Positions 3,751 to 16,696 of a stretch of DNA of 25,062 nt are shown piece by piece. Positions within the stretch are counted from its first letter, which is position 1. Each line of letters starts with the position of its first letter. The translations under genes were made by a program, and so were the position numbers. The DNA comes from a virus: positions 1-25,062 of IMG/VR virus record IMGVR_UViG_3300025112_000174; one strand, given 5' to 3'. A model generated the notes under the pieces. The model ran no database searches. It was given only the letters and a program-made list of their open reading frames with translations, and had not been told where the DNA came from.

Positions 3751-6700
3751 CTATAGAAAGCTAACTTTTGCGTCGTGGCCCGCATTTGTTGAAACTTCAA
3801 TGATGTTATCCACAACATCTTTGACTGTATCCACGTGTGAAATGATTATGATCGATCGAAATGTTTTTGTTAGACTTCGAAGCAATGCCGTGCACGCCTC
3901 AATGTTGGTTGCATCCAGCGCCCCAAACCCTTCGTCGATGATTAGGGTGTCGCACTTCGGAAGACTAGAGACTCGGACCAAAGCTGTCCGAATAGCCAGC
4001 GAAGACATCATCTTTTCCATTCCGCTGCAACACTCGATAACTCGTCTTGAGTCCCCGTAGTTGAGAATAATGTCCATGCCGGATGAATCGTCGGTAGTAA
4101 GTTCAACTGTAAATCCGGTGACACCCTGCAAGATGTTGGCAATTTCATTGTTGATGAGGGGAAGCTTCCGCTTAATAATCTGCAGTGGTATCCCATCTCG
4201 ACTCAAAGCTCGAACCAGCAGGGATAACACGTAGACCCGCTGGTTGTTCTTTTGAAACCCATCCTTGTCTTTTTTAAGTTGTCCAATGTCAGCGACCAAA
4301 AGCCCAATTCTCTCACTCAGCGTTTGGACTCTTCTTTTTGCTTCCAGAAACTTTTCCTCTGCTAGTTTTTTCTTCTTGACCAGAACCTCTCTGGACTTGG
4401 CATTCTCTGTTGAGCAAAGGTTGATCTTCATTCTGGTCAATTGTTCCTTTTCTGCCTCAAGATTTCTTTCGACTGTTGATATTAATGATTGTATCCTTAA
4501 GATCGACATATTACACTTCGAAATTGCCTGAAGCAACACGTATCGTTTTTCGTCATATGTCTGCTTTTGTTCGAGCTTCTCATCAATGTTCTCTTTCATT
4601 AACTTCTTGAGGGACGATCTCATTGCCGCGGCGTGTTTCTTTGACTGGCGCAATTCTTCTTTCTTGTCCAGCATGTTCCTCTCAGCTTTCTTGGCGCTAA
4701 TAATGTACTTGCAGGATGGAAAAGTGTCATCGCATGGAACATCAGTTAGCTTTTTGACTTCCCTCTTGTCTCGCCTAAGCTCTGACGACTTGGTTTCAAT
4801 CTCGCCTGTCAGGACCAACAGGCTGTGTTCAAACTCGGTAATTTTGTCCTTGGATTCTCGGATATCATCAAAGTCAATATCCTCAATCTCTTTCTCCATT
4901 TCCGATGCTGTCGATAACAAGGCTTCCTTTTGAAGCGTCTCGGTCTTTTTCGATTCTTCTAGGTCTTCCAAATCCAGCACCTGCTGGTTTACCTTCTCCT
5001 CTTGATCATCAATTTCGATTTGGGTATAAGCTTCATCTGATTGGGATCCTAGCGCCAAGTTGATGGTATTGAGAATGGCAGTGATTTTTTCCATCGCGAG
5101 TGCCTCTGCATCTCTCTCACTCTTTCTGGCAGTTAGCTTAGACCTACGATCAAGAATCTGAATATCGAATTGCTTTTCCGGAATGGCTGCCAGTGATTTC
5201 TTGGCAAATGAAAGCTCTTGTTTGACTTGATCATGAAGCGCATCCAAAATGTCCAACCTCAAAAACTTGGCAAGGATGTTCTTTCGTGTTGCCGACCCGT
5301 GTGATACGAATCGGTTTATGTCGCCCTGGGATGCCAACGAAGTTAGTAGAAAATCATCCAGGCTCCCAACCATGGTCCTCAGAAGCTTTTCTGTCTCCCT
5401 TCTTTGCTCCTCTGACATATCTCGAAGGACTGTTCCTGTCTCATCACATTCGAATAGATTCAATTGAGTTGATGCTGTTGTGGTGCCACTCCTGTTTGTT
5501 CTCTTGACTGTTTGTCGTTCCACCAGGAAGTTTTTTCCTTGTTTCGATATCACGGCCTTGCTTTTACAGTATCCCTTTCTCGCATTGACGATGTGAATGT
5601 TTTTCATCGGCCCACGATCAGTTCCGTTGAAAAGTGTGTAAGTTAGTGCCCCGCACAGGGATGATTTTCCAGATCGGTTCTTTCCAAAGATTCCAGTAAT
5701 TCCCGATGCCGACTCAAAGTTGACGATATTGTCCTCACCATACCCAAAGACATTATCAAATTCCATCTTCTTGATTGACCAGCGCCCGTTTGAGACGTTG
5801 TCAGTCAACCTAGCTGAACTCCATGTGGATGCCAGGATTTTCGACATTTCGTCATGAACCTGCTGCTTGAGATTCGACTTCGAGTAGTATTCACTGACAA
5901 GGGAGTTGACTGACTCATAGCTGTCGATTTGAGTTACCTCGTCTAAGGAGTCCCCGGAAATCTCAACTGACGATTCGTTTAGTTCACGCTTGAAGACAAT
6001 CTCAATGGGATCTGACACATTTTTGATTGCGCCCCTGATTTGAGTCATCTCTCCTTGTGTAACATTACTTTGAATCCGGACTCTCACATGGGATTGCACT
6101 TTCTGTTCTTCCATGACAGACTGCAGATTATCCACGTTTCCGTCATAGTCCAGCGTCACAAATGGGTGATCATGATCCACCTCGACGTGTTTTGCTTTGA
6201 ACTTCTTGCCGTCGATCTCCCAAAGCAGGAATCCTTTTCCTGTATCCTCTGAGTGATTTTGTTGTGGGAGGCTTCCCGGATAAGCAATCGTTGGGGTCAA
6301 AAACTGTTGCTTGTGAATATCACCCAGCATTGTGTAGTCATAGTCCTGGAAAAAATCCAGCCCAACAATGCAGTCAATTGCCCAGCTCTCATCTGTCTTT
6401 GTTCCTAGGACTGGGCCATGAAGCGTGGCAATGTTTATCTTACCGTCTTCCGGTTTCACATTCGGCCAGGCGGCCTCATCAAAACAAGAAAAAACACAGA
6501 GATTGTGCTGCTCGTCCAAGGGATAAACACCTGACTTCTTGTGAAGCATGATTCTTGGATTGTCGATGGCATGTATGATCGGAGAAATGGCGTCCTCTCG
6601 ATCTGGATTCAGAATCAAGCCATCATGATTTCCCAGTATCACTCGAACTTCTGCTATCTTGGCCAGGCCGTTGAACCACCACGTAAGATGATTGATCAGC

Positions 6701-6870
6701 TCTGGAGAGATCCCCTGTGTCTTGGAGTGGACTATGTCGCCCGCCACCAGAATAAAATCCGGGTTGATCTTCCGGAGCTTTTTGAAAGCGTCCTCAAACA
6801 CAAATCGATATTCTTTGTGTCTGGACAGAGACCTCCAGTGAATATCGGCCATGTGACATATTTTGATCAT
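3751..6870 (-). CDS. SbcD-SbcC (gp47-gp46/Mre11-Rad50-like) single-chain fusion
   Basis: A 1039-aa protein combining the recombination nuclease and its SMC-like ATPase in one chain. Residues 1-340 are a calcineurin-type phosphoesterase: D9-x-H11, AGD45, GNHD (80-83), H151 and GDIH (183-186). Residues 365-460 are the Rad50 N-lobe with Walker A GKNRSGKSS (396-404). A coiled coil follows, with a hook-like C713...C720, and then the C-lobe: ABC signature CSGMEK (948-953), Walker B TLIIDE (975-980), D-loop GALD (983-986) and H-loop SH1012. The complex resects DNA ends for recombination-dependent replication. An ATG 58 codons further upstream is open, but the start at 6870 is preferred: it begins the conserved MIKICHMADIHW block and overlaps the primase stop as ATGA. 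Confidence 0.93.
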   Translation of the reverse strand: MIKICHMADIHWRSLSRHKEYRFVFEDAFKKLRKINPDFILVAGDIVHSKTQGISPELINHLTWWFNGLAKIAEVRVILGNHDGLILNPDREDAISPIIHAIDNPRIMLHKKSGVYPLDEQHNLCVFSCFDEAAWPNVKPEDGKINIATLHGPVLGTKTDESWAIDCIVGLDFFQDYDYTMLGDIHKQQFLTPTIAYPGSLPQQNHSEDTGKGFLLWEIDGKKFKAKHVEVDHDHPFVTLDYDGNVDNLQSVMEEQKVQSHVRVRIQSNVTQGEMTQIRGAIKNVSDPIEIVFKRELNESSVEISGDSLDEVTQIDSYESVNSLVSEYYSKSNLKQQVHDEMSKILASTWSSARLTDNVSNGRWSIKKMEFDNVFGYGEDNIVNFESASGITGIFGKNRSGKSSLCGALTYTLFNGTDRGPMKNIHIVNARKGYCKSKAVISKQGKNFLVERQTVKRTNRSGTTTASTQLNLFECDETGTVLRDMSEEQRRETEKLLRTMVGSLDDFLLTSLASQGDINRFVSHGSATRKNILAKFLRLDILDALHDQVKQELSFAKKSLAAIPEKQFDIQILDRRSKLTARKSERDAEALAMEKITAILNTINLALGSQSDEAYTQIEIDDQEEKVNQQVLDLEDLEESKKTETLQKEALLSTASEMEKEIEDIDFDDIRESKDKITEFEHSLLVLTGEIETKSSELRRDKREVKKLTDVPCDDTFPSCKYIISAKKAERNMLDKKEELRQSKKHAAAMRSSLKKLMKENIDEKLEQKQTYDEKRYVLLQAISKCNMSILRIQSLISTVERNLEAEKEQLTRMKINLCSTENAKSREVLVKKKKLAEEKFLEAKRRVQTLSERIGLLVADIGQLKKDKDGFQKNNQRVYVLSLLVRALSRDGIPLQIIKRKLPLINNEIANILQGVTGFTVELTTDDSSGMDIILNYGDSRRVIECCSGMEKMMSSLAIRTALVRVSSLPKCDTLIIDEGFGALDATNIEACTALLRSLTKTFRSIIIISHVDTVKDVVDNIIEVSTNAGHDAKVSFL

Positions 6871-11000: not shown

Positions 11001-11483
11001 CTATGTCAGTAGTTTGATTGCTTCCACAACATTCGCGTCAGACAAACCAGTATCAAAACTGGTTTGGACAAAGTGATCCGTCAAATGCTCCATATCATCG
11101 TCATCATCTAGAATCACAAATCGCTCGCAATTGGGAGCGTTTTCATCGAGCCACGCCTGGATTTCAATGCCGCGCGGGGTATGAAGGATCGGAGTCATGC
11201 CGACAAATTCTCCATGAACGTTCGCCAGCTTGTTGAAAAATGTTGCGGCGGCCTCTGTACTGTCGAAATGCATCCGCCATGTTGATGACAGGACAATCTT
11301 GGCGTCAACAGATGAAGTTAATCGATTCAGGCGTGCAATACAGTTTTTGTCAAGCATCTTAGCTTCACGTTCCCAGAAGCTTCCTGTGAGCAGCGGGCAG
11401 AAATTCTCATCAAAGAAATCCGCAGAGTTCAAAACACCATCAACGTCCAGAAAAACCAAGCAATCATTTTCATTCAGTGTCAT
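11001..11483 (-). CDS. HAD-superfamily phosphatase-like protein (RNA-repair-associated type)
   Basis: A 160-aa protein with the HAD motifs: FLDVDGVLN (11-19; nucleophile D13, acid D15), LSSTWR (65-70, motif II with following Arg) and VILDDDDDM (123-131, motif IV acids). The segment PRGIEIQAWL fits the small HAD family found in 'Swiss Army Knife' RNA repair proteins. The likely reaction is hydrolysis of a phosphate ester; a nucleic-acid 3' end or nucleotide substrate is inference from family resemblance. There is no fused kinase or ligase. A strong SD (AGAGGAA) lies 5 bases before the ATG and is inside the 53-aa upstream ORF, whose end overlaps this start by 14 bases. It is the last gene of the promoter-bearing cassette. 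Confidence 0.85.
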   Translation of the reverse strand: MTLNENDCLVFLDVDGVLNSADFFDENFCPLLTGSFWEREAKMLDKNCIARLNRLTSSVDAKIVLSSTWRMHFDSTEAAATFFNKLANVHGEFVGMTPILHTPRGIEIQAWLDENAPNCERFVILDDDDDMEHLTDHFVQTSFDTGLSDANVVEAIKLLT

Positions 11484-12157: not shown

Positions 12158-13435
12158 TTAGAAGTCTAGCCGCAGACGGAACGTGATGTCCCTCTCATCT
12201 GATTTCTCAATTGGGCGAGAAACCTTTGCCACTGCTAGCAAGTTTCCGTACTCATCATGAAGCCCAACAGTTGTTGGCATGGTGAACGTTCGCTGCGTGT
12301 CTTCCTGGCCAGAATCAACAACCCGGATCTTTCCAGTGCTATTGACGAATGTTGGGTTGGTTGAATAGTTGAACTCATCGGCAGTTGCACGGCAGAAGAT
12401 CAATGTTGAATTGATGTTGGTATTGTTCTGGAAAGTTGCTGCCGTTAGAGTTCCGGACTGGAATCGACAGGAAGCAACATGATCAATAATGTTGTCGATG
12501 GAGGCCGAGACCACAAAGTCCGGAATGAACTTGGCTTGTGGGTTTCCGGCAGATGATCCCATCACTGTTGATCCAGCGGGGATGGTGGCGCCATCAATGG
12601 TAACCCCATTTGCCATGGCGTCAATGGTTCCGGACATTTTTTGGGATCCTGAGAAGATTTTCTCGAGATCGAGAACCACAGTGCCGGCATCGTAGAATAT
12701 CAGTCCGGCTTCAATGCTTGTGTCTGCAGCGTTTTTGATAGTTCCTACGCCGCCGCCAAACGTCCTTTGCTGATTTGTGCTGGCCCCGATATCTGTGAAG
12801 ATACCTGATCCGGAGATTGAAGTCAAACTCAGATTAGCCTGTCCATTTGCAGTCAGAGTAGCATCCTCATCCCGTGCGCTGGTGGTTCCGGTCTGGTACA
12901 GTCGAATTGCAAATGTTTCTCTCTTGAGGGAGTCGCGGCCAAAGAGTCGCTTGAAGGACAGGAAAAGTGCATTATCAATTCGATTGGTTGGGACGCTTGT
13001 TGGTGTTGAGCTGATAGAAAACGGAGAGTAAAAAGCCTGTGTTGCATCACCCAAGAGGTTCGCGGCGTACTGTCGATAGATGTCAATCTTCTCACGCATC
13101 ATTAGACTTTGGGATGGGAACAATAGCTTTCCAGCTGAGTCCTCATTGGTCGATGCAGTAACAACCGTTGTTCCACTATACCAGAGACCCATGGTCATAT
13201 CAAGAATTGGATTGGCTGTCTGTAGCGTGAAATCCTGATCGTAGACGGTCTGGAACAAAGAGCTGGTTACTCCAGGGCCGATTCCGCCTGTTACAAAGAT
13301 CTGATATGACCTTCTCGTGGCACTTCCAGAGACATCTTCCTGAATTACGTCAACCAGTTGATTTAGTACAGATCGAGAGGGCTTGATGTCCTCAGGTGAG
13401 ATTCTCTTAAAGCTTCCGCCTATTACTTTTGCCAT
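12158..13435 (-). CDS. Virion structural protein, 425 aa
   Basis: The protein starts MAKVIGGSFKRISPEDIKP. Visible blocks are YQIFVTGGIGPGVTSSLFQ (44-62), LFPSQSLMMREKIDIYRQ (105-122), FLSFKRLFGRDSLKRETF (158-175), GLIFYDAGTVVLDLEKIF (244-261) and NINSTLIFCRATADEFNYS (340-358). It ends AVAKVSRPIEKSDERDI followed by a short strand RLRLDF. I recognise this as a conserved structural protein type of T4-like aquatic phages, probably tail, neck or baseplate, without a proven role. The C-terminal region (244-425) resembles the end of the 831-aa LamG protein. SD AAGGAAAT precedes the ATG at 13435, 13 bases after the previous stop. Confidence 0.82.
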   Translation of the reverse strand: MAKVIGGSFKRISPEDIKPSRSVLNQLVDVIQEDVSGSATRRSYQIFVTGGIGPGVTSSLFQTVYDQDFTLQTANPILDMTMGLWYSGTTVVTASTNEDSAGKLLFPSQSLMMREKIDIYRQYAANLLGDATQAFYSPFSISSTPTSVPTNRIDNALFLSFKRLFGRDSLKRETFAIRLYQTGTTSARDEDATLTANGQANLSLTSISGSGIFTDIGASTNQQRTFGGGVGTIKNAADTSIEAGLIFYDAGTVVLDLEKIFSGSQKMSGTIDAMANGVTIDGATIPAGSTVMGSSAGNPQAKFIPDFVVSASIDNIIDHVASCRFQSGTLTAATFQNNTNINSTLIFCRATADEFNYSTNPTFVNSTGKIRVVDSGQEDTQRTFTMPTTVGLHDEYGNLLAVAKVSRPIEKSDERDITFRLRLDF

Positions 13436-13448
13436 GACTTATTTCCTT

Positions 13449-14165
13449 TTATGAACTGCTGCTATTCTTGTTGATATTGACCATGAATTCTTTGCGAAGG
13501 CCTGACTGATCTCCAACCACTGCAACGACCGTGCTAATAGTGTCTCCGTTTCCATAAACATTGAACGATGTATCGTCTATTGCCCGTGTTTCCAGAGTGA
13601 ATTGCATCTGGGCTCCATTCTGACTTGTTGGTGTGGACCTAACAATGTTGTAGCTTGCAATGCGACTGGTCGGCTCGACCTGCAACGGGGTATGATCCCG
13701 GATTGTCAAGAAACGATCCGGCACAAACACAGTAAACATCACATCTCCTGTTCCGTCCGGAATTCGAGTCTGTGCATCAATTTTCTGGACAACCCTGACG
13801 TCTGACGTTGTTGTCGGATCAAGAGTGATTGTGTTGTTGGTGACTCCCAGGATTGACATCGAGGGAAGCCTGATAACTGTTGGATCCGGCAAGGTCAGCA
13901 GACGATATTTGAGAGCCAGAGCTCCCTGAGTCTGTGCTTCAAAGATTGGTGTGTTCTTTGTGATCTTCTCTTTTCCAACGGTGCGTCCAAACTTCTCGAT
14001 GATTGTGTAATCGACCTCATCATCGCCAAGCGAGAAAAACGCCAGCTTGAAACTTCCGTTGTTGTCCGCCAACTTGCGGCGACCGACGTCAGTTAGTACC
14101 GCGTCGATGATAATGTTGTTTGTAGAATTGTCAAGAAATCCGATATCACACCTCCAGTGGTGCAT
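13449..14165 (-). CDS. Virion structural protein with possible ATC start
   Basis: A 238-aa protein if it starts at the ATG at 14165, or 231 aa if it starts at ATC 14144-14142. Conserved sequence begins at GFLDNSTNNIIIDAVLTD, and then comes LGDDEVDYTIIEKFGRTVG. Relatives I remember begin with Met where this one has Ile (ATC). The seven residues before it (MHHWRCD) are read from the tail of the homing endonuclease gene. A strong SD, GGAGG, lies 6 bases before the ATC, whereas the ATG at 14165 has only a weak AAGTGG upstream. The N-terminal module resembles that of the 318-aa protein at 23380-24336. It is probably a tail or neck component; the start remains open. Confidence 0.8.
   Translation of the reverse strand: MHHWRCDIGFLDNSTNNIIIDAVLTDVGRRKLADNNGSFKLAFFSLGDDEVDYTIIEKFGRTVGKEKITKNTPIFEAQTQGALALKYRLLTLPDPTVIRLPSMSILGVTNNTITLDPTTTSDVRVVQKIDAQTRIPDGTGDVMFTVFVPDRFLTIRDHTPLQVEPTSRIASYNIVRSTPTSQNGAQMQFTLETRAIDDTSFNVYGNGDTISTVVAVVGDQSGLRKEFMVNINKNSSSS
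14143..14152. repeat. Direct repeat copy 1, at 3' end of homing endonuclease
   Basis: On the minus strand it reads GGTGTGATAT. It matches GATGTGATAT at 14861-14870 at 9 of 10 bases (8 contiguous). The two copies flank the homing endonuclease gene and may mark the insertion ends. Confidence 0.4.
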
Positions 14166-14817
14166 AGCGCCACTTGCACTTTTTGTGCGTCTGTCTTAGT
14201 CCTCGACAAACAGACAGTATTTTGCTGTCTGATCCGTTGACCAATGATTTTGCTGCCAATTGGGCTGATTCGAACCTTCGAATCTCATTCCCTTCCAGGT
14301 CAAGCTGGATTACTGGCGTCGTCTTGTATTTTCTTCGTCTGTTTGCTGCCGCGATCTTTGCTCGTGCCTCAGCCGACTGAGGTGTCCCGAACGGCCGGCC
14401 ACCGTTTCCGGGCAAGTCTGCTGCTAACAATCCCTTTGAAATCGCCTTGCAGTGAGCCGGTGATAGCTTCTTTCCCATCCGAGCTCGACTCATTGCCGCT
14501 TTGGCTTCATCAGTATGACGATATCCGAAGATTCCGTCTCCGCCAAGGGTCATATTGTATCCCCCTTGCTTCACAAAAGTCTCCAGCTTCTCAATCCAAA
14601 ATGTCTCTCTCTTTCGGAGGGATACTTCAGAGTCGCACTTCTCTATCGTTTTCATTTTGAAAGTGTCGGTGCCGTATTTTCTGATTGCTTTTGCCAGAAG
14701 CGTCTTCGCAGATTTTGAAGCATGAACGTGATATCTCCAGCGCTCAGAAAGAGGCTTGGTTGTGATTCCCACATACCCTTTTCCGTTCTGCGTGTTTTCT
14801 ATCAAGTAAACTTTCAT
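14146..14817 (-). CDS. GIY-YIG homing endonuclease (free-standing, Seg-like)
   Basis: A 223-aa site-specific DNA endonuclease that spreads its own gene. The catalytic domain is N-terminal: VYLIENTQNGKGYVG (3-17, GIY and YIG strands), R26, the helix FWIEKL with E76, and YNMTLGGDG (87-95, with N88). A NUMOD3-like DNA-binding segment (GYRHTDEAKAAMSRARMGKK, 98-117) follows. A NUMOD1-like helix-turn-helix (VIQLDLEGNEIRRFESAQLA, about 168-187) runs into a WRYA ending typical of these enzymes. All catalytic positions appear present, so it may be active. It sits between two virion genes in the same orientation, not inside a clear intron. The SD is weak (AAGAGAAA). Its end overlaps the next gene's upstream start and contains that gene's strong SD. 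Confidence 0.9.
   Translation of the reverse strand: MKVYLIENTQNGKGYVGITTKPLSERWRYHVHASKSAKTLLAKAIRKYGTDTFKMKTIEKCDSEVSLRKRETFWIEKLETFVKQGGYNMTLGGDGIFGYRHTDEAKAAMSRARMGKKLSPAHCKAISKGLLAADLPGNGGRPFGTPQSAEARAKIAAANRRRKYKTTPVIQLDLEGNEIRRFESAQLAAKSLVNGSDSKILSVCRGLRQTHKKCKWRYAPLEV
14149..14155 (-). promoter_or_regulatory. Strong ribosome binding site before a non-canonical start
   Basis: GGAGGTG on the minus strand is the best SD in this area. It overlaps the last codons and stop of the homing endonuclease gene. At ideal distance (6 bases after GGAGG) the codon in the frame of the downstream structural protein is ATC, not ATG/GTG/TTG. A GTG directly after the SD is too close and leads to an 18-codon dead-end frame. 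Confidence 0.6.
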
Positions 14818-14860
14818 TTTCTCTTTCGTGTTCCTGCACCTTGCGGCGCTACCAGACTAA

Positions 14861-14870
14861 ATATCACATC
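14861..14870. repeat. Direct repeat copy 2, upstream of homing endonuclease
   Basis: On the minus strand it reads GATGTGATAT, nearly the same as the copy at 14143-14152. It lies in the 73-base gap between the stop of the 601-aa protein and the endonuclease start. That gap has no clear promoter or terminator. Confidence 0.4.
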
Positions 14871-14890
14871 ATCCGGCTTTTCGTAAATTA

Positions 14891-16696
14891 CTAGATTTCG
14901 TCTCGTTTATCGCTGACTCGAATCTCAGCTGTTGTTGATTTCTGCAGATCAAGATTCAAAAAATGAACCTGATATGTTCCTTCGCTCTTGTTAGTCACCA
15001 ATGCATTGATGATTTTGCCTTTGTCGTCTGTTGCCTCAATTGTGTCGGGTGTGAAGTAGACATCCATTCGAGTGTGTCCACTATCAAAAATCGCATCCTG
15101 CGAAAATGAATCAACGGCAATGTTGTCGTCCAGATCCGGGTCGATAAAGAAGTTGGGATACTGCTTTGGGGCACCGGGTCGCGAGATGTTTTTCAAAGTC
15201 AGTATGTTGGATGTCTTATTGAATCCCACTTGTGTTTGTGCAGAGTATCCTGACGTCAATCCATGAGCATCTACTGCACAAACGGCATAAATAGCATCAG
15301 CTGAGTCCCGATTGAATGAGCGGTCCTCAAACATCGTCTGTGGTCCCTTTGATTTTATCACCAGGTCCGGACGAACTCTTTCGGGGCGTAATGTTGGAAT
15401 GCCCGAATCATCAAAATCAATCTCGGCCAGGCATTGGAATGGCTCATAAATGCTTCTTCTTCTGAACACTTGGAAAAACTTCACGTCTCGAGATCTTCCC
15501 GATGGGATCTGCCACGTCATGATCAGTCCGCGCCCTTTGCTGTAGTGGAAATTATAGAAGACACCATCAGGAAACTCCGGCGCCTGATACTCTTCAGTTA
15601 CCACTGTGACTGCTGCCGATGGACGTGAAGCGATCAGCGTGGCAATTTGGGACTTCTTATCCTTTCCTGTTGAAACAATTGCATCAACTCGATAAACTGC
15701 CCTGACTGAGTAGACGTATTTTGTTCCATACGCTACTTTTGAATCGATAAAGCTGGTGCTTTCTCTTCCGGACAGAACGAAAGTCTGAGGATTGCTCAAT
15801 CCAGTGGGGCCAGGGTCTGGGCAGCGGCCAGACGGAGCTAACTGCTTTCGAATCAAAATGTATCCGACGGTTGTTGCAGCCATGATTCGGACAGTGTCGT
15901 TGGATTCAATTCCGTCGGTAACAGTCTTGAATGGCGTTAGTGCAGCCTCAAAATCAGAATCCGTCAAATTGACAGAGTCGGCCGAAGACAGAAAATCACT
16001 TGCGATCTGATTTCCTATGCTTTTGTCTCCCGTTCGGCTAAGAGGAGACACATCGTCACCTCCCAATGTAGCGACTCCCAGGACTCTTTTGCTTACTAGA
16101 GAAGTAAGGGACAGCTGGGATGCGATGTCAAAAAGGGTTGCCTGTGATACATCGGGTTTGAAATTCACCTGTAGGTCTTTTTGATTTTCGTATGGAGAGA
16201 TTAGCTTTTGGATCCAACCTTGATCTACACCCAGAATTTGAGATAGCTTCTCAGACTGATGAGAATCTGAGAAGTCGAGATTTAGAGCATTGCTTAGTGA
16301 CTTTACCTTCTCAGACAGTCTTTTTGTGGCATCCGGATCAGACTCTCGAACTGACGCAAATGGCTCGTTTGTTATCGACTCTTCACTTGATACCTTCCCT
16401 TCCTTGAGAAACTTTGAAAGATCAGTGGTTTCCTTTGCGTCTCCAAAGTTGTTGAAATCTACACTCTGGGCCGGCTTGAAATTGATATTGACATATCTTG
16501 GGACCTTCAGTTTGAGAGATCTTTTCCTTATGGTTTCCTCGGTCGCCTCTCTTGTTCGGCCAATCCCGGGGACTCTCAAATCTCCTGCGTCATTTGTTCT
16601 CTCATCAGGGGTGAAAAAATTGTAGACAAACTCTGCCTTAATCTCAACCGGATCCGGTACCTCAACTATTGTAAATCGTCTACTTGCAGTTGCCAT
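14891..16696 (-). CDS. Large virion protein, 601 aa, with Fn3-like domains
   Basis: The N-terminal third (1-200) is mixed and charged, with helices at about 123-170. Two Fn3/Ig-like beta sandwiches follow. The first, about 277-365, shows GYILIRKQL and YGTKYVYSVRAVY (323-335). The second, about 372-490, shows GLIMTWQIPSG, FFQVFRRRS and DAIYAVCAVDAHGLTSGYS. The C-terminal part (500-601) is another beta-rich region ending AEIRVSDKRDEI. Fn3-like folds are common in tail, baseplate and fibre proteins; no enzyme motif is seen. The ATG at 16696 is preceded by GGTGG and lies 3 bases after the upstream stop. It forms a run with the 1279- and 939-aa genes and may act in the same virion substructure. 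The function is otherwise unknown. Confidence 0.78.
   Translation of the reverse strand: MATASRRFTIVEVPDPVEIKAEFVYNFFTPDERTNDAGDLRVPGIGRTREATEETIRKRSLKLKVPRYVNINFKPAQSVDFNNFGDAKETTDLSKFLKEGKVSSEESITNEPFASVRESDPDATKRLSEKVKSLSNALNLDFSDSHQSEKLSQILGVDQGWIQKLISPYENQKDLQVNFKPDVSQATLFDIASQLSLTSLVSKRVLGVATLGGDDVSPLSRTGDKSIGNQIASDFLSSADSVNLTDSDFEAALTPFKTVTDGIESNDTVRIMAATTVGYILIRKQLAPSGRCPDPGPTGLSNPQTFVLSGRESTSFIDSKVAYGTKYVYSVRAVYRVDAIVSTGKDKKSQIATLIASRPSAAVTVVTEEYQAPEFPDGVFYNFHYSKGRGLIMTWQIPSGRSRDVKFFQVFRRRSIYEPFQCLAEIDFDDSGIPTLRPERVRPDLVIKSKGPQTMFEDRSFNRDSADAIYAVCAVDAHGLTSGYSAQTQVGFNKTSNILTLKNISRPGAPKQYPNFFIDPDLDDNIAVDSFSQDAIFDSGHTRMDVYFTPDTIEATDDKGKIINALVTNKSEGTYQVHFLNLDLQKSTTAEIRVSDKRDEI

Follow-up and report, generated by a model that had tools for sequence, protein, structure and literature searches.

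The 231-residue protein gene examined in this study carries ATC at codon 1, where its relatives have ATG. The main reading of this gene, held at a probability of roughly 80%, is that translation is initiated at AUC on an extended Shine-Dalgarno (SD) sequence delivered by the cassette of a homing endonuclease gene (HEG), with termination-reinitiation possibly helping. The gene lies in the window, i.e., the whole stretch of 25,062 nucleotides that was analysed (viral record IMGVR_UViG_3300025112_000174). AUC is in general a poor start codon and, to our knowledge, known bacterial and phage genes very rarely start with AUC; a literature search for a phage gene with an AUC start returned no case.

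Layout of the locus

The features of the locus in the window, all on the minus strand, are as follows.

12158..13435 (-), downstream neighbour gene, 425 aa, conserved in L001
13449..14144 (-), 231-residue protein gene, N-terminus IGFLDNSTNN, under purifying selection
14142..14144 (-), ATC, codon 1, putative start codon; ATG in relatives
14145..14150 (-), TGTGAT, the six-base spacer from SD to ATC, with the HEG stop inside
14148-14146 (-), HEG stop TGA, ending one base before ATC 14144-14142
14151..14155 (-), SD sequence GGAGG (GGAGGTG with the two bases that follow)
14163..14165 (-), ATG, sole canonical start in frame upstream of ATC; would add MHHWRCD; not common to the relatives
14146..14817 (-), GIY-YIG/NUMOD3 HEG, 223 aa (PF01541 and PF07460)
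14818..14890 (-), 73-base leader separating the HEG from the upstream gene, counterpart of the leader that stands before the gene's own ATG in L027, an empty relative
14858..14865 (-), GATATTTA, late-promoter-like motif
14891..16696 (-), upstream neighbour gene, 601 aa; relatives have the same upstream neighbour

The minus strand reads ATG(14165) CAC CAC TGG AGG TGT GAT ATC(14144-14142) GGA TTT CTT GAC across the junction. The preliminary description had placed a GGAGG exactly six bases before the ATC, overlapping the end of the HEG and its TGA, and the minus-strand coordinates agree; it was also correct in naming ATG 14165 as the sole canonical in-frame start upstream, a codon without an SD comparable to the GGAGG. 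The product had additionally been called a structural virion protein. What stands of this is the inference from the gene's neighbourhood. The protein could be assigned to no family and matched no fold convincingly: Pfam, PHROGs, two AlphaFold models and fold searches gave generic beta-sandwich matches only, the C-terminal half being predicted as a beta-sandwich.

Elsewhere on the minus strand of the window, one ORF (3751-6870) contains calcineurin-like phosphoesterase and RecN/SMC/SbcC-type ATPase domains and is a probable fusion of T4 gp47 and gp46 homologues, and 11001-11483 encodes a HAD domain of the Swiss Army Knife RNA repair type (PF18143, E 5e-32).

Codon 1 and its Shine-Dalgarno sequence among related loci

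A first homologue search returned 16 viral loci, 15 of which begin with ATG-Gly-Phe-Leu-Asp; the other, L001, is 68% identical to the window gene and again has ATC behind an endonuclease gene. Every locus of this set that lacks the endonuclease carries a Met codon, in agreement with the earlier statement that the conserved N-terminus begins at I-GFLDNSTNN where relatives have Met. The full locus set combined a scan of a viral collection for a codon 1 not ending in G, an alignment-based search and a wider pattern. Codon 1 is ATC (10) or ATA (1) in 11 distinct related loci, window included, ATG in 72 loci of the de-duplicated set (73 before) and GTG in five, counts that do not represent frequencies because both patterns targeted non-ATG codons. 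One pattern match, L026, was discarded as a chance match. The ATC/ATA phages are uncultured contigs throughout; the same state was recovered in two separate contigs each for L110 (=L111) and L018 (=L022), and sequencing error as the source of ATC is ruled out by independent contigs.

The arrangement AGGTGT-NNN-ATC, with identical spacing, is common to 10 of the 11 ATC/ATA loci, and AGGTGT exactly 6 nt before codon 1 occurs in these 10 vs. one of 72 ATG loci. The mean anti-SD duplex energy is -10.9 kcal/mol for the ATC/ATA loci and -7.7 kcal/mol for their ATG relatives (Mann-Whitney p 3e-4), with -13.2 kcal/mol for the GGAGGTG of the window. The SD of the ATC/ATA loci is well spaced and on average stronger than that of AUG orthologues, with the exception of L018 (codon 1 at 2221-2219 (-), same in L022), where codon 1 is ATA, the AGG of the SD is lost (ACGTGTAAAATA), no canonical in-frame start is present and a full-length HEG lies upstream. 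The motif AGGTGTNNNATHGG occurs exactly once per record in 11 of 12 records (including one of 340 kb), only at the codon 1 site, and reversed control sequences gave zero matches. A search for a conserved hairpin over the SD and start gave pairing with the TTCCT codons in some loci only.

Five of the 11 loci (L018, L021, L023, L112 and L110) have an in-frame stop 5 to 13 codons upstream and lack any ATG, GTG or TTG between it and codon 1, and an AUH start in these loci has no canonical in-frame alternative, whereas the window retains ATG 14165. Codons 2-22 are as conserved as in the ATG relatives, and the segment GFLD.STNNII.DAVLTD, from codon 2 onward, is among the most conserved of the protein. 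Differences between the window and L027 amount to 0.59 at third positions vs. 0.15-0.21 at positions 1-2; this combination of conserved codons 2-22 and variable third positions therefore shows that translation takes in codon 2. Canonical codons further downstream are not common to the loci, and their use would drop the conserved N-terminal part. With five loci lacking a canonical start and conserved codons following, translation must begin at AUC/AUA or at another non-canonical codon just before it. The proposal that the window gene starts at AUC has thus gained ten further AUC/AUA loci and a conserved SD and spacing, and genuine initiation at AUC on the extended SD, with AUC as the probable P-site codon, is well supported by these sequence comparisons.

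The preliminary description had offered an N-terminal extension derived from the HEG as the other option. As a general account it fails on the in-frame stops of the five loci above; in the window itself, a start at ATG 14165 inside the HEG would add the seven residues MHHWRCD. Such a start is improbable: the ATG is in frame, no stop intervenes and coupling to the nearby HEG stop is conceivable, but the GGAGG is positioned for ATC and not for this codon, the L001 counterpart is out of frame, and five AUC/AUA relatives have no canonical upstream start to use. Possible upstream starts also differ between loci (ATG at -7 in the window, GTG at -9 in L001 and L020), and upstream ATG/TTG codons are present in L109, L113 and L114.

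Searches for altered initiation machinery found IF3_C in none of the 12 ATC/ATA records, and the fully read tRNA genes (one 340-kb contig) included no initiator-like tRNA with a GAU anticodon; this is weak evidence because most records are fragments. The 340-kb contig, IMGVR_UViG_3300036772_000425 (L145-L148), has 58 tRNA matches, several with abnormal anticodon loops in ARAGORN (caat, agaa, tc), and a similar abnormal loop (ttca) occurs in L149 of another contig.

The homing endonuclease and the history of the start site

A HEG or C-terminal HEG remnant lies just upstream of codon 1 in eight of 11 ATC/ATA loci vs. four of 77 ATG/GTG loci (Fisher's test p 1e-6). Full HEGs precede codon 1 in the window, L001 and L018, and a HEG HMM identified C-terminal remnants, which stop 5 to 35 bases short of the codon, in L112, L023, L020, L114 and L021, with scores that exceed those of every HEG-free ATG locus; the L020 remnant was also recovered by an independent profile search, and the HMM detected no remnant in L109, L110 or L113. 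An independent-pairs test gave 4.3 of 7 pairs going the same way and 0.3 the opposite way (median p 0.125), leaving the HEG-ATC association strong in counts and unproven under this strictest test. Four loci with a full HEG keep ATG (L051, L076, L102 and L104), so insertion does not force a codon change. A requirement of ATC for immunity to the endonuclease was also considered and is not supported: the L051 HEG is 65% identical to that of L001, yet ATG is kept. Among 34 loci with other relatives of the HEG, no non-canonical start was found beside the endonuclease except that of the 231-residue protein gene. In L104, the HEG overlaps the first 14 bases of the gene, and its TGA stop lies inside CTTGAT with ATG kept.

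The HEG consists of a GIY-YIG domain and a DNA-binding module in an ORF of its own with no intron, as in free-standing endonuclease genes, and is present or absent at the same site in the window vs. L027, L001 vs. L028 and L051 vs. L046. In L051 (=L015) the HEG begins MGFLDHDNYTVY: it has taken over the gene's leader and SD together with the ATG and the six opening codons, and downstream of the HEG the gene starts from a second copy, ATGGGGTTCCTTGATCAT. The leader is confirmed by L046, a relative with an empty site. The L001 HEG begins HDKYTVY at the contig edge, and what can be read of it there matches the L051-type fusion; in L021 ATGGGATTTCTAGATC is joined to the C-terminal remnant in a 25-codon ORF with its stop just past AUC. 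A motif resembling T4-type late promoters, NATA(A/T)TTA, is found at most 85 bases upstream in 41 of 77 ATG/GTG loci vs. four of 539 control windows and is shifted upstream in most ATC loci. In the window, the HEG ATG follows GATATTTA by 39 bases, and in L027 the motif stands 42 bases from the gene's own ATG; the window HEG probably occupies the gene's original start. Combined, the HEGs and remnants upstream of codon 1 and the comparison of L051 with the empty L046 support the earlier suggestion that endonuclease insertion was involved in the change of start.

The same duplications bear on two explanations in which AUC would not be used for initiation. Recoding, either by a frameshift out of the HEG frame or by a T4 gene 60-like bypass that takes off from the upstream MGFLD copy, would find a suitable arrangement in L021, where ATGGGATTTCTAGATC, about 50 bases of HEG remnant and ATCGGTTTCCTAGATC follow one another, and bypass in T4 involves an SD-like GAG located six bases ahead of the landing codon (PMC3014915). 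However, the HEG frame relative to the gene varies (+2 in the window, +1 in L001, L020 and L021, and 0 with a stop in L018), and neither L020 nor L110 contains a suitable take-off ORF, i.e., a translated one with a codon matching the landing codon, the upstream copy in L020 being destroyed; recoding is therefore considered very improbable. Removal of a self-splicing intron, or other RNA processing, could restore AUG in the mRNA, as many HEGs reside in introns and the L051 HEG lies between duplicated MGFLD segments. This explanation is given almost no credence, given that no Rfam intron match and no catalytic core with splice sites around the HEG were found, that 73 bases between the upstream gene and the HEG and one base between the HEG stop and ATC leave no room for a catalytic core, and that the whole intergenic space of L110 is 95 bases with no HEG.

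Returning to initiation at AUC, the proposed sequence of events would begin with insertion of a GIY-YIG HEG at the gene's start. The HEG would take over the gene's promoter and leader and, in L015/L051, also its SD, ATG and first six codons, and the 3' end of the insertion would become the new initiation site, with an extended SD (GGAGGTGT) six bases before AUC. Initiator fMet-tRNA would pair with AUC with a mismatch at the third base, and ribosomes terminating on the HEG could reinitiate there. In most loci the stop of the HEG or remnant ORF is close to AUC; where the HEG ORF is intact, its stop lies within about 20 bases of AUC, so that reinitiation probably helps, an SD being known to help reinitiation after a nearby stop (PMC2268962). 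L020 has no upstream ORF with a canonical start ending near AUC, and those of L110 are tiny, which means that coupling is not indispensable at every locus. The HEG would often decay, its last bases with the SD and AUC being retained because the gene depends on them. Protein yield may be reduced or tuned, which is plausible. A precedent for such initiation is found in Staphylococcus aureus, where AUU/AUA starts with an extended SD give about 10% of AUG expression (PMC13009471). Against it, a mispaired AUC gave little product in vitro (PMC10158994).

The ATC/ATA loci are scattered among ATG relatives: the window lies by L027 (ATG), L001 by L028, L021 by L037 and L110 by L075/L099, and there is a group of six with ATG loci interspersed. 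Descent of all ATC/ATA loci in one clade is rejected (p 1e-61); their distribution requires at least eight state changes. Five phages (L023, L109, L112, L113 and L114) have an identical AGGTGTAACATCGG, whereas their synonymous sites are near-saturated, one codon is kept at only 20 of 160 conserved residues, and the adjacent HEG remnants have diverged. With AGGTGTAACATCGG unchanged although ATG is one base change away, the AUC block looks as if it is maintained by selection. That distant lineages share the wording of the junction suggests that it spread along with the cassette through homing and co-conversion, flank co-conversion being known for phage HEGs (PMC2988022).

Two accounts of this upkeep can be given. 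Tentatively, and short of calling it probable, the 3' end of the HEG cassette is proposed to be a portable, selection-maintained ribosome-binding site with an AUC start: the endonuclease would seize the gene's start, leaving the gene expressed at a reduced, termination-coupled or IF3-sensitive level, and the remnant could not be lost once the ATG was gone. AUC may have escaped replacement by AUG through a lower yield, through initiation-factor timing or as a trace of cassette origin. Alternatively, AUC would be used yet be a passive scar, having arisen in a HEG-carrying allele and spread with the flank by homing, neutral since because a strong SD suffices. This is rather unlikely; AGGTGTNNNATC shared by far lineages, the scattered ATC/ATA distribution and the known co-conversion of HEG flanks would all suit it, but the block has stayed the same in lineages that have lost the HEG and substituted most synonymous positions, though one base change would restore ATG.

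Comparison with known systems

The AUC state is recurrent, its likely cause (a mobile endonuclease on the gene start) is visible, and it has outlived that cause in several lineages. Gene finders will miscall AUC/AUA starts, and these loci provide a natural test both of how far SD strength and termination-reinitiation offset a bad start codon and of the lasting marks that selfish elements leave on host gene expression.

Among bacterial AUH starts (AUU in infC and pcnB, and AUU in cvfC1 and AUA in ccpN of S. aureus), a conserved gene, a close extended SD and cross-species conservation are likewise seen, and a lower yield is expected, as here (PMC13009471). Unlike those cases, the present one is a phage AUC in a putative virion gene, tied to HEG insertion rather than to a cellular regulator, and known from sequence. 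The seg GIY-YIG HEGs of T4-like phages and the gene-splitting insertions of mobA/mobE (PMC2988022) are also intron-less and between genes with an upstream phage promoter, with overlap of neighbours, possible disruption of host genes and a stop adjoining the next start. In contrast to them, the insertion described here lies at the start codon, where the HEG can capture the start of the host gene, and the non-canonical start codon left to that gene persists after the HEG has decayed. The bypass of T4 gene 60 beside mobA (PMC3014915) is likewise an insertion associated with a HEG and leaves behind a changed translation signal, with an SD-like sequence six bases before the codon at which decoding resumes; unlike T4 gene 60, several loci of this study are without a take-off ORF, and the evidence favours initiation.
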